From Nocardioides immobilis (lineage in GTDB: Bacteria; Actinomycetota; Actinomycetes; Propionibacteriales; Nocardioidaceae): a stretch of DNA of 64,000 bases. The stretch is from assembly GCF_003515065.1 (NCBI RefSeq), contig NZ_QXGH01000012.1, positions 62,001 through 126,000 on the forward strand. The letters run 5' to 3'. Positions 43,421 to 52,990 of this stretch are shown here, piece after piece. The notes beneath the pieces are model-generated. The model made no database searches. It was not told the origin of the DNA and worked only from the letters and a program-made list of their open reading frames with translations. Every line of letters begins with the position of its first letter. Positions within the stretch are counted from its first letter, which is position 1. A program made the translations under genes and the position numbers.

Positions 43421-43621
43421 GTGAACCGTCTTGGCGCTGCGACGAGCCCGTACCTGCTGCAGCACGAGGACAATCCCGTGGACTGGTGGGAGTGGGGCCC
43501 GGACGCGTTCGCTGAGGCGCGGGAGCGCAACGTGCCGGTGCTGCTGAGCGTCGGGTACGCCGCCTGCCACTGGTGCCACGTGCAGGATCCCCGTGCGGAT
43601 CGCGGCGGCGTCGCCGCATAA
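43421..43621 (+). pseudogene. 5' remnant of the native DUF255 (YyaL/Rv1084-like) gene
   Basis: GTG 43421 opens a 66-residue frame. Its first 54 residues align with the start of the intact DUF255 protein at 50948: SPYLLQHEDNPVDWWEW, VPVLLSVGYAACHWCHV. After the CHWCHV codons it runs into unrelated sequence and stops at 43621. Codon third positions are about 90% G/C, like the chromosome, so this looks like the original 5' end, cut off when the island entered. A coding role for the fragment is unlikely. Confidence 0.85.
43565..43581 (+). other. Left junction / putative attL of the island
   Basis: TGCCACTGGTGCCACGT, encoding CHWCHV, is where similarity to the intact DUF255 gene ends. It matches the right junction at 51095-51111 in 15 of 17 bases; TGGTGCCA (43571-43578 and 51101-51108) is identical and would be the minimal crossover core. 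Confidence 0.55.
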
Positions 43622-43683
43622 CCGCTGGTCAGAGGCATATTTCGTGCCGCGCGAGTTCATCGAGTGCCGCCGTTGGACACGGG

Positions 43684-43712
43684 TTCCGCGGCTTCGTGTA
43701 TCACTTCCGCGG
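43684..43712 (+). repeat. Left-end repeat CTTCGTGTATCACT, bracketed by TTCCGCGG copies
   Basis: CTTCGTGTATCACT (43692-43705) equals the right-end copy at 50866-50879 and is flanked by direct TTCCGCGG copies (43684-43691, 43705-43712). Possible recombinase arm site or IS-type terminal repeat. Confidence 0.5.
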
Positions 43713-43823
43713 TGCTTTAGAACGGTTGTGCAGGCGGTGCTTGCACCATTCGCCCGAGCTGACGGGCGGCGCTGAGGCTGTCGCTTGAAGTGGCGCGACG
43801 TTGCTTATTTGCAACAGGAGTAC

Positions 43824-50859: not shown

Positions 50860-50934
50860 GGCGATCTTCGTGTATCACTCTCGAGCCGTTTCGTGTATCA
50901 CTCAGGTCCTTTCGGTCCCTCGACGAGCGCGGGC

Positions 50935-50940
50935 TAGCGT
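50935..50940 (+). promoter_or_regulatory. -10 box before the intact DUF255 gene
   Basis: TAGCGT with 7 nt to GTG 50948. The intervening GGGGAG could also act as a weak ribosome-binding site. This promoter lies inside the putative island, so the element would drive the reconstituted gene. Confidence 0.4.
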
Positions 50941-50947
50941 GGGGAGC

Positions 50948-52990
50948 GTGCCGAATCACTTGGCGTCCGCGACCAGTCCGTACCTGCTCCAACACGCTCA
51001 GAATCCCGTGCATTGGTGGGAATGGAGCGAGGAAGCGTTCGCAGAAGCGCGCCGGCGGGACGTGCCCGTCCTCCTCAGCGTGGGCTACAGCAGTTGCCAT
51101 TGGTGCCATGTCATGGCGCACGAGTCGTTCGAGGACGACGCGACCGCGGCGTTCATGAACGAGCACTTCGTCAGCGTCAAGGTCGACCGCGAGGAGCGGC
51201 CGGACGTCGACGCGGTCTACATGCAGGCCACGACCGCGATGACCGGGCACGGCGGCTGGCCGATGACGGTCGTGCTCGACCACGAGGGCGCACCGTTCTT
51301 CGCCGGCACCTACTTCCCGGACCAGCCGCGGCACGGCTCGCCGTCGTTCCGCCAGGTGCTGGCGGCGCTCTCGGAGGCGTGGCAGGACCGCGGCGACGAG
51401 GTACGACGCGTGGCCGACCAGCTGCGCGAGCACCTCGCCATGTCCGGCGACCTGCCGTCGGCGCCGATCACCCGCGAGCTGCTCGACGGTGCAGTCGCCA
51501 CGCTGGCGAACGAGTTCGACCCGATGGCAGGAGGGTTCGGCAACGCTCCGAAGTTCCCGCCCACGATGGTGCTGGAGCTCCTCCGGCGGGTCTCGACAAG
51601 CTCGACCACCGACGCCGACGGTGAGACCGTGAAGCAGGCCCGGCACATGCTGGCCCGGACGGCGGCGGCGATGGCCGGCGGCGGCATGTACGACCAGCTC
51701 GGCGGGGGCTTCGCCCGGTACGCCGTCGACCGCGGCTGGGTGGTGCCGCACTTCGAGAAGATGCTCTACGACAACGCCCAGCTGGTGGGCCTGTACGCGC
51801 GGCTGGGCACCGAGACGGGAGACCGGGTCGCCCGGGAGACCGCCGACTTCCTGATCCGCGAGCTGCGCACGCCTGAGGGTGGCTTCGCCTCCGCGCTGGA
51901 CGCCGACAGTCCCGATCCGGCGACCGGCAAGAGCGTCGAGGGCGCCTACTACGCCTGGACGCCGGCGCAGCTGGTCGAGGCCCTCGGTGAGGCCCGTGGC
52001 GCCTGGGCGGCGGACCTGTTCTCGGTCACCGAGGAGGGCACGTTCGAGCACGGCACCTCGACCCTGCAGCTGCGGCACTACCCGGCCGACAGCCACGAGC
52101 GGGCCCGGCTGGCCGAGGTCCGCGCCCGGTTGCTCGACGTGCGCGACCAGCGGCCGCGCCCCGGCCTCGACGACAAGGTCGTCGCCGCGTGGAACGGCCT
52201 CGCCATCTCCGGGCTCTGCGACGCCGGCCTGCTCCTCGGCGAGCAGGAGTACGTCGACGCCGCTGTCGCCGCGGCAGAGCTGCTCGCGAGGATCCACGTG
52301 GTCTCGACAGGCTCGGCCGACAACGGCGGCTCGACCAGCACGTCGATCCTGCGCGTGTCCCGTGACGGCGTGGCCGGTCCGCACGCCGGCGTCCTCGAGG
52401 ACTACGGCTGCGTCGCGTCCGGCTTCCTCTCGCTCGTCCAGGCGACCGGCGACGCCCGCTGGCTGACCCTCGCCACCGGGCTGCTCGACCACGCGCTCGA
52501 CGGCTTCCGCGCGCCCGACGGTGGGTTCTTCGACACCCACCAGGACGCCGAGGCACTCGTGGCGCGCCCGCGCGACCCGGGCGACAACGCCTCGCCGAGC
52601 GGTTTCAGCAGCATGATCCACGCCTTGGTGACCGCTCATGCGCTGACGGGCGAGGGCCGGTACCGGGACGCCGCCGAACAGGTGCTCGCGACCGTAGCCG
52701 GGCTCGCCGAGCGGGCGCCCCGCTTCACCGGCTGGTCGCTCGCCGCGGCCCACACCATGCTCGACGGACCGCTCGAGGTCGCGGTCGTCGGGCCCGCCGG
52801 CCCGGACCGCGACGCCCTCGCTGCCCGCGCCCGCCGGCTCCCCGGGGCGGTGGCGGTCGTGGCGGACGGTCCCCGCGACGACGTACCCCTGCTGGCCGGG
52901 CGCACGGCCGTCGAGGGCCGGGCGGCGGCGTACGTCTGCCGCGGTTTCGTCTGCGAGCGCCCGGTGACCTCGCCGGACGACCTCGGGTAA
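50948..52990 (+). CDS. DUF255 thioredoxin-like / glycan-fold protein (YyaL, Rv1084-like), mosaic 5' end
   Basis: 680 residues from GTG 50948. The N-terminal thioredoxin-like domain (~1-165) carries Cys50 and Cys53 in CHWCHVMAHESF; the rest (~190-680) is a six-hairpin (alpha/alpha) fold like spermatogenesis-associated protein 20/YyaL. Function is unclear. About 14 of the first 56 codons end in A or T, then almost none after the CHWCHV codons, so the 5' end looks imported. Two REP-like insertions (51591, 52302) encode Ser/Thr-rich loops. Its place before hemolysin III and the cis-prenyltransferase fits Rv1084. Confidence 0.92.
   Translation: MPNHLASATSPYLLQHAQNPVHWWEWSEEAFAEARRRDVPVLLSVGYSSCHWCHVMAHESFEDDATAAFMNEHFVSVKVDREERPDVDAVYMQATTAMTGHGGWPMTVVLDHEGAPFFAGTYFPDQPRHGSPSFRQVLAALSEAWQDRGDEVRRVADQLREHLAMSGDLPSAPITRELLDGAVATLANEFDPMAGGFGNAPKFPPTMVLELLRRVSTSSTTDADGETVKQARHMLARTAAAMAGGGMYDQLGGGFARYAVDRGWVVPHFEKMLYDNAQLVGLYARLGTETGDRVARETADFLIRELRTPEGGFASALDADSPDPATGKSVEGAYYAWTPAQLVEALGEARGAWAADLFSVTEEGTFEHGTSTLQLRHYPADSHERARLAEVRARLLDVRDQRPRPGLDDKVVAAWNGLAISGLCDAGLLLGEQEYVDAAVAAAELLARIHVVSTGSADNGGSTSTSILRVSRDGVAGPHAGVLEDYGCVASGFLSLVQATGDARWLTLATGLLDHALDGFRAPDGGFFDTHQDAEALVARPRDPGDNASPSGFSSMIHALVTAHALTGEGRYRDAAEQVLATVAGLAERAPRFTGWSLAAAHTMLDGPLEVAVVGPAGPDRDALAARARRLPGAVAVVADGPRDDVPLLAGRTAVEGRAAAYVCRGFVCERPVTSPDDLG
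51095..51111 (+). other. Right junction / putative attR of the island
   Basis: TGCCATTGGTGCCATGT, encoding CHWCHV; codon use changes from mixed to almost fully G/C-ending directly after it. Pairs with the left junction at 43565-43581. Confidence 0.55.
51591..51607. repeat. REP-like motif TCTCGACAAGCTCGACC inside a coding sequence
   Basis: One of three near-identical 17-mers TCTCGACARGCTCGRYC in the window (others 7123-7139 and 52302-52318), all inside genes and encoding Ser/Thr-rich loops or tails. Confidence 0.6.
52302..52318. repeat. REP-like motif TCTCGACAGGCTCGGCC inside a coding sequence
   Basis: Second copy within the DUF255 gene, encoding part of VSTGSADNGGSTSTS, a low-complexity loop probably absent from homologues without the insertion. 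Confidence 0.55.

Follow-up and report, generated by a model that had tools for sequence, protein, structure and literature searches.

Probable remnant of an integrative-element family at a DUF255 gene of Nocardioides immobilis

How does a single DUF255 gene come to have two 5′ ends? This question is raised by a 64,000-nucleotide stretch of the Nocardioides immobilis genome (contig NZ_QXGH01000012.1, positions 62,001 to 126,000; the whole of this stretch is called the window), in which an island of 7,530 bp is bounded by a DUF255 5′ fragment (43421-43578) and a full DUF255 gene (50948-52990), both on the forward strand. The island is very probably the decayed remnant of a family of integrative elements that insert repeatedly at DUF255 in Nocardioides and a few other Actinobacteria, which would make the gene a hybrid of host and element.

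The fragment starts with a GTG codon at 43421 and has 50 codons before the left copy (43571-43578, candidate attL) of eight bases, TGGTGCCA, that lie over the CHWCH codons; past these codons its frame enters unrelated sequence and is closed at 43619-43621. From Pfam and sequence comparison it is likely to be the original host end. The full gene also starts with GTG, at 50948, and its present 5′ end of 51 codons (50948-51100) precedes the identical right copy of TGGTGCCA (51101-51108, candidate attR), after which the host body of the gene (51109-52990) reads open through 52990. Both fragment and full gene match Pfam Thioredox_DsbH/DUF255, and they share 76% nucleotide identity across 143 nt. 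A first-pass annotation made from the sequence alone had placed the end of the fragment at the CHWCHV codons, with an intact gene 7.5 kb further on, and reading of the window agrees, with TGGTGCCA shared by both sides. No transfer RNA was found in the window by ARAGORN.

A change of composition at the point where the fragment ends had also been claimed, and the GC content of third codon positions (GC3) bears this out. Over the 45 codons before the core, GC3 is 0.76 in the full gene and 0.93 in the fragment, and over the 45 codons after the core it is 1.00 in the gene. Comparison was made with 60 uninterrupted genes, these being genus genomes with a single full-length match for which DNA was retrieved (a few single-match genomes were omitted), and with 23 elements of the same arrangement described below. 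Mean GC3 before the core is 0.745 in element-side 5′ ends (22 of 23 scored), compared with 0.943 in uninterrupted genes (59 of 60 scored) and 0.903 in fragments (20 of 23 scored), whereas after the core it is nearly equal in element-bearing and uninterrupted genes (0.974 and 0.975; Mann-Whitney p = 2e-8 before the core and p = 0.92 after it). The step in the window gene therefore exceeds chance, and its lower-GC3 5′ end would be derived from the element. The stranded fragment was nearer than the present 5′ end to the native 5′ ends of all 60 uninterrupted genes (mean identity 0.837 versus 0.718), which is what the predicted empty site requires.

Recurrence and boundaries of DUF255 islands

The same arrangement is found across the genus, which includes the window genome together with Nocardioides phosphati (G128), Nocardioides sp. 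Root140 (G153) and Nocardioides sp. Soil797 (G157). A DUF255 5′ end was present in 100 of 215 genus genomes, 35 of which had two or more matches. In 25 of the 100, a second match is a short piece that ends at codon 51-56 and shares contig and strand with the full gene, which follows 2-134 kb downstream; G193, with a piece of 26 codons only 0.9 kb off, was excluded from this count, and the remaining nine multi-match genomes have pieces on other contigs. Elements from 23 of the 25 were analysed in detail. Exact TGGTGCCA was found in 21 of 24 fragments (the others being from G005, G216 and one of two G093 copies) and in 23 of 23 genes, and the two sides diverge soon after it. Islands ending at the CHWCHV codons, which the first-pass annotation had proposed to look for elsewhere, were thus found in many other genomes, and this recurrence, along with the closeness of the fragment to native ends, largely supports its proposal that the native gene was cut at these codons and given a new 5′ coding end by an incoming element. 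No DUF255 5′ end was detected at an expectation value (E) of 0.001 in the other 115 of the 215 genomes, so that the target gene itself has a patchy distribution.

In an order-wide sample, 202 of 293 genomes contained a DUF255 5′ end, and among the matches listed most genomes outside the family have one match only; this list was not used for island counts. A second, shorter match beside the full gene was found in 9 of 10 named genomes searched. Tandem elements with an integrase at each junction occur in G093 and in Nocardioidaceae SSC3. The latter (CP059259.1, loci L232 and L233) carries two copies of the integrase at a distance of 116 kb; beside one of them there is only a DUF255 piece of 54 residues, and the arrangement appears to be a tandem integration.

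The boundaries of one element can be read from G153 and G157, in which it is 38.0 kb long and 100% identical from core to core, bar one 63-bp length difference. On the left, identity starts at TGCCACTGGTGCCA, preceded by two different 5′ ends. On the right, it spans the arm-like sites, the start codon, the entire 5′ coding end and TGCCACTGGTGCCACGTGATGG plus seven bases, after which the host genes differ. Because the identity covers the 5′ coding end, this end belongs to the element. The cargo of the pair encodes Mce-type transport proteins, a cytochrome P450 and a Fic protein, apparently a recent transfer of catabolic-looking cargo.

An integrase beside DUF255 and its candidate attachment sites

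A tyrosine integrase of about 468 amino acids adjoins the donated 5′ end and points away from it in 18 of the 23 elements, whole or in part. Among the 23, it was not found in the window, G005, G015, G100 and G123; only pieces are found in G190 and G216, and it is frameshifted or split in G172 and G187. The N. phosphati element measures 18.6 kb, and its integrase reading frame is open. It was recognised by reading the G172 element, clustering of all open reading frames for a common integrase having returned mostly antisense noise. The integrase is present in 26 of the 215 genus genomes, and in 25 of these a DUF255 5′ end lies on the opposite strand at a match-to-match distance of 70-404 bp, the sole exception being a truncated copy in G225. 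At E 1e-30 it was found in 37 of 341 family genomes from 7 of 26 genera, two of these being only 37% identical, and it is rare in a class-wide sample (2 of 394 genomes). At 30 of 31 named loci, which include Aeromicrobium, Brevibacterium sandarakinum, Cellulosimicrobium arenosum and three metagenome-assembled genomes of Frankiales, a DUF255 5′ end again stands beside it on the opposite strand. Since the Frankiales integrases at DUF255 are only about 55% identical, the choice of target is probably old. In C. arenosum (L245, 4001-7925), the integrase gene matches in two pieces with about 2.5 kb between them, as though a later insertion had split it.

R257, R416 and Y450 are invariant in 18 of 18 members, so that the protein has both the Arg...Arg...Tyr residues and, from its structure model, the integrase fold of the tyrosine recombinase superfamily. 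All 15 Foldseek matches of the model at E 0.001 or better were lambda, Tn1549 or integron integrases, with unrelated proteins among the weaker rows. A PHROG integrase was matched at E 8.6e-20 and Pfam Phage_integrase by 11 of 18 members at E 1e-3, and there was no NCBIfam match; by such comparisons, the family is divergent. R413 (YRNLRHH) and D441 (YLGDKL), conserved in 18 of 18 where model confidence is low, presumably occupy the positions of the usual His of HxxR and the usual His/Trp of the LGH box, respectively. An origin from phages or plasmids is unsupported: 50,697 phage records contained no match, a pattern scan of IMG/VR contigs found none, and plasmids gave one weak match at 24% identity.

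Divergence of the donated 5′ end parallels integrase divergence (Mantel r 0.68, p 0.0005) but not divergence of the gene body (r -0.24, p 0.94; n = 15); a stricter first run (n = 10) gave 0.73 and -0.12, respectively.

Among 411 alignment windows from the 60 uninterrupted genes, the 22-bp core ranks first in conservation; it encodes the CxxC motif of the thioredoxin-like domain. CxxC is the functional motif of such domains, and its position under the core may explain why the target is durable. Elements of the relatives carry a complete 5′ copy from start codon to core, and direct arm-like repeats are found ahead of the start codon and beyond the core. These TTCGTGTATCAC-like repeats often come in pairs with a spacing of 12-13 bp. 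Counted from the first base of the core, the left ones are about 117-138 bp downstream and the right ones about 205-235 bp upstream, and a word common to both element ends beyond shuffles was found in 15 of the 23 elements. The window has three exact copies of TTCGTGTATCAC on the forward strand, one on the left (43693-43704), 114 bp beyond the left core, and two on the right (50867-50878 and 50890-50901). In one uninterrupted gene, in G069 (contig C8, near 603130), GC3 ahead of the core is 0.76 and an arm-like site stands 60 bp upstream of where the match starts; this gene is likely the scar of a lost element. With two mismatches allowed, it is the only one of the 60 uninterrupted genes with an arm-like site, and footprints of lost elements are rare or erode fast.

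The donated coding sequence itself contains an inverted arm-like site, GTGAT[A/G]CACC, in 10 of 23 element ends and 19 of 30 named loci, placed exactly 44 bp ahead of the core. It was found in none of 22 fragments and none of the 60 uninterrupted genes (Fisher p 5e-7 for element ends versus uninterrupted genes, a value that overstates the contrast because related elements are not independent). In the eight elements that have both kinds of site the variable base agrees, with six A/T and two G/C, the elements of G153 and G157 being identical; this supports an arm-type site that would overlap codons. The window's own gene lacks this coding-sequence site.

Two genes from other orders look chimeric in such comparisons. 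The stranded fragment of B. sandarakinum has 95% (up to 100%) identity to nine Brevibacterium 5′ ends and its gene body 91%, whereas its present 5′ end has only 76% identity to Brevibacterium and likewise 76% to ten Nocardioides genes, so that Nocardioides is one possible source. One of the nine Brevibacterium genes (L272) is nearer to this present 5′ end, at 85%. In C. arenosum, compared with Nocardioides alone, identity is 89% for the present 5′ end, 77% for the stranded fragment and 48% for the gene body.

Relaxase genes were found in 13 of the 23 elements, whole, in part or distant, and are of TrwC type in G172 and G157. No type IV secretion genes were found among nine other proteins of the G128 element, in a scan that covered part of the predicted proteins of the elements.

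Proposed mechanism, alternatives and precedents

In the mechanism proposed, the element's own tyrosine integrase would recombine an attP site with the TGGTGCCA (CHWCH) core of the DUF255 gene. The native 5′ end would be stranded at the left junction, and the element's 5′ end would be fused in frame to the host body, so that the gene stays open and may be read from a promoter borne by the element. Relaxase-bearing relatives would transfer between cells using other conjugation machinery, and the window copy would move only with integrase supplied in trans. We lean, with some reserve, towards a further proposal. The same donated bases would code for the N-terminus of the host protein (Arg-Asp-Thr/Ala-Pro) and form an arm-binding site of the integrase, so that the recombination machinery dictates host codons, and repeated insertion, decay and re-insertion would have exchanged the N-terminal part of the DUF255 coding sequence many times over, giving cross-order chimeras by site-specific recombination and not by homologous exchange.

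Several results weigh against an integrase-driven origin of the island. No empty site from the window's species was found, and the upstream neighbours, YceI and a methyltransferase, were not found in up to 4 kb upstream of the 60 uninterrupted genes; the synteny route to an empty site failed because these neighbours are not conserved. The window's genome contains no integrase match at E 1e-30, and 8 of the 23 elements have no significant common arm word. Pfam Phage_integrase scored the integrase P0001 below its cut-off (20.5 versus 27.1), a sequence search of solved structures gave no match, and the structure model is of middling confidence (mean predicted local distance difference test score 66). 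Sample mixing between G153 and G157 is conceivable, as they possibly come from one sequencing project, yet their flanks and gene bodies differ. Divergence of the fragments does not follow that of the gene bodies (r 0.03, p 0.42, n = 22), in contrast to the 5′ ends of the 60 uninterrupted genes (r 0.37, p 0.003), and is correlated with that of the integrase (r 0.46, p 0.015, n = 15). These correlations speak against a model in which all stranded fragments are pristine host ends. We read them as a sign of earlier replacement rounds, because in G027 there is another integrase, decayed, immediately beyond the fragment and because elements are in tandem in G093 and SSC3.

Entry of the island by one homologous crossover within the 5′ ends of DUF255 genes is very unlikely. 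Exchange would be possible in the core, whose 22 bp are better conserved than any other stretch of that length in the alignment, and the window yielded no integrase, but a crossover leaves unexplained why the same integrase family stands at the junction in 25 of 26 integrase-bearing genus genomes, why the spacing between arm-like repeats and core is similar and why tandem arrays have an integrase at each junction.

For site-specific integration, the dusA islands are a nearer precedent than the prfC system named by the first-pass annotation. As described for them (Farrugia et al. 2015, PMC4482086), a tyrosine integrase uses a single site within a conserved gene's 5′ end, the islands supply a new 5′ coding end, and the original end rejoins on excision, which was shown by polymerase chain reaction (PCR); the islands vary, the integrase is their only universal gene, and a section heading gives the integrases as exclusive to three of seven proteobacterial lineages. 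The DUF255 elements appear similar in replacing the 5′ end of the target gene, but their target is DUF255 (30 of the 31 named loci), their core is the CHWCH codons and their hosts are Actinobacteria. Unlike the PCR-proven excision of dusA islands, that of DUF255 elements is deduced from sequence. Arm-like sites inside the donated coding sequence are a feature of the DUF255 elements and may be a further difference from the dusA islands.

SXT restores prfC with its own 5′ end. According to PMC2786100 and PMC4344509, the SXT/R391 integrative and conjugative elements are conjugative, about 100 kb long and have an integrase that inserts site-specifically in the 5′ end of prfC. The DUF255 elements share site-specific integration in the 5′ end of a conserved protein-coding gene but differ in target and host phylum; the relatives of the window island have an integrase and a TrwC-type relaxase, with no transfer apparatus recognised among the proteins scanned. 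By target, the DUF255 elements belong to neither the dusA islands nor SXT/R391. A review (PMC5704250) gives only one canonical integrative and mobilizable element in Actinobacteria and lists MobP, MobQ, MobV or MobC relaxases for canonical ones. Elements of the relatives resemble these in combining an integrase, a relaxase of their own and cargo, whereas neither integrase nor relaxase was found in the window island. The integrase-bearing relatives look like mobilizable elements that differ from canonical ones in their TrwC-type relaxase, which we take to be MobF.

DUF255 as an integration site was not found in the literature searched, under this or the thioredoxin domain-containing and spermatogenesis-associated protein 20 names, papers on DUF255 being judged by title or opening of the abstract and most subscription papers lying outside its coverage; the available part of PMC11706625 makes no mention of DUF255. 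With the dusA islands and SXT at prfC as precedents, the target gene, the integrase family and the inverted arm-like site in donated coding sequence are new here. If the proposed mechanism is true, DUF255 is a new and much-used chromosomal integration site with a new integrase family in Actinobacteria, and comparison of sequenced strains gives a natural example of how a mobile element rewrites the beginning of a conserved gene and produces cross-order chimeras. Actinobacterial genetics would also gain a candidate attB of high conservation, together with a testable example of recombination sites concealed in coding sequence.

The window island and its near relatives

All five genes of the island are on the reverse strand. 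The first (43824-45563) encodes a protein with a SWIM zinc finger (below cut-off) and DUF6880, matched by PADLOC PDC-S62. It is followed by a TOTE-type primase-helicase (45566-47989; AEP-TOTE, ResIII and Helicase_C) and an NTP_transf_8 nucleotidyltransferase (48033-48845), with 89% and 86% protein identity, respectively, to the G172 element. A helix-turn-helix (HTH) protein (48817-50052; IclR HTH, below cut-off) overlaps the nucleotidyltransferase frame and is 88% identical to that of G172. The last frame (50049-50585) encodes a small conserved protein of 178 amino acids, whose true start is probably further in. Homologues of it occur in 17 of the 23 elements, and no Pfam family was found for the window copy or the relatives scanned; at a guess, it is a candidate excision factor. 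The cargo kept by the island is defence-like. No relaxase was found in the island and no integrase, of which only scattered, chance-level pieces were seen at E up to 10; as the window genome also has no integrase match at E 1e-30, the window copy is probably unable to move itself.

The G172 element is 11.2 kb long and shares 83-87% nucleotide identity with the window island over 4.7 kb of cargo. It has an extra block encoding an XRE-like protein (named by eye), a TrwC-type relaxase and the integrase, the latter with a frameshifted C-terminus. From this alignment, the window island looks like a G172-type element after loss of the relaxase and integrase block. The first-pass annotation did not notice that the window copy is apparently an integrase-less deletion derivative. 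It is still less probable than a homologous crossover that the island is complete and currently mobile, with a recombinase unrecognised among its five proteins. Both junctions and the arm-like sites are kept and the 178-residue protein has no family, but the other four proteins are accounted for by SWIM/DUF6880, TOTE, NTP_transf_8 and a weak HTH, the small protein is also found in integrase-bearing relatives, and G172 shows which genes the window copy lacks.

A broken DUF255 copy is present in the same genome on contig C8 (43529-44166), covering query residues 29-239 in an unrelated context. Such a copy shows that decayed copies occur, but a segmental duplication, in which the fragment is the remnant of a decayed paralogue and the island lies between two copies by chance or through transposon insertions, is the least probable alternative of all, because fragments in unrelated genomes end at the same codons beside an integrase, G153 and G157 have one element in differing flanks, and the C8 copy is unlike the fragment and extends past the core. 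Neither a separate decayed paralogue nor a fragment and full gene without the island, either of which was to count against the first-pass annotation, was seen.

Contig C41 of the same genome has a core at 15804-15827 through which a right end and a left end are joined, flanked on either side by a pair of arm-like sites; the joined sequence is 82% identical to the window's right end. Judged on this layout, it could represent an attP or a plasmid copy, or else the junction of a former tandem. The site is surrounded by catabolic-looking genes (by eye) and a transposase.

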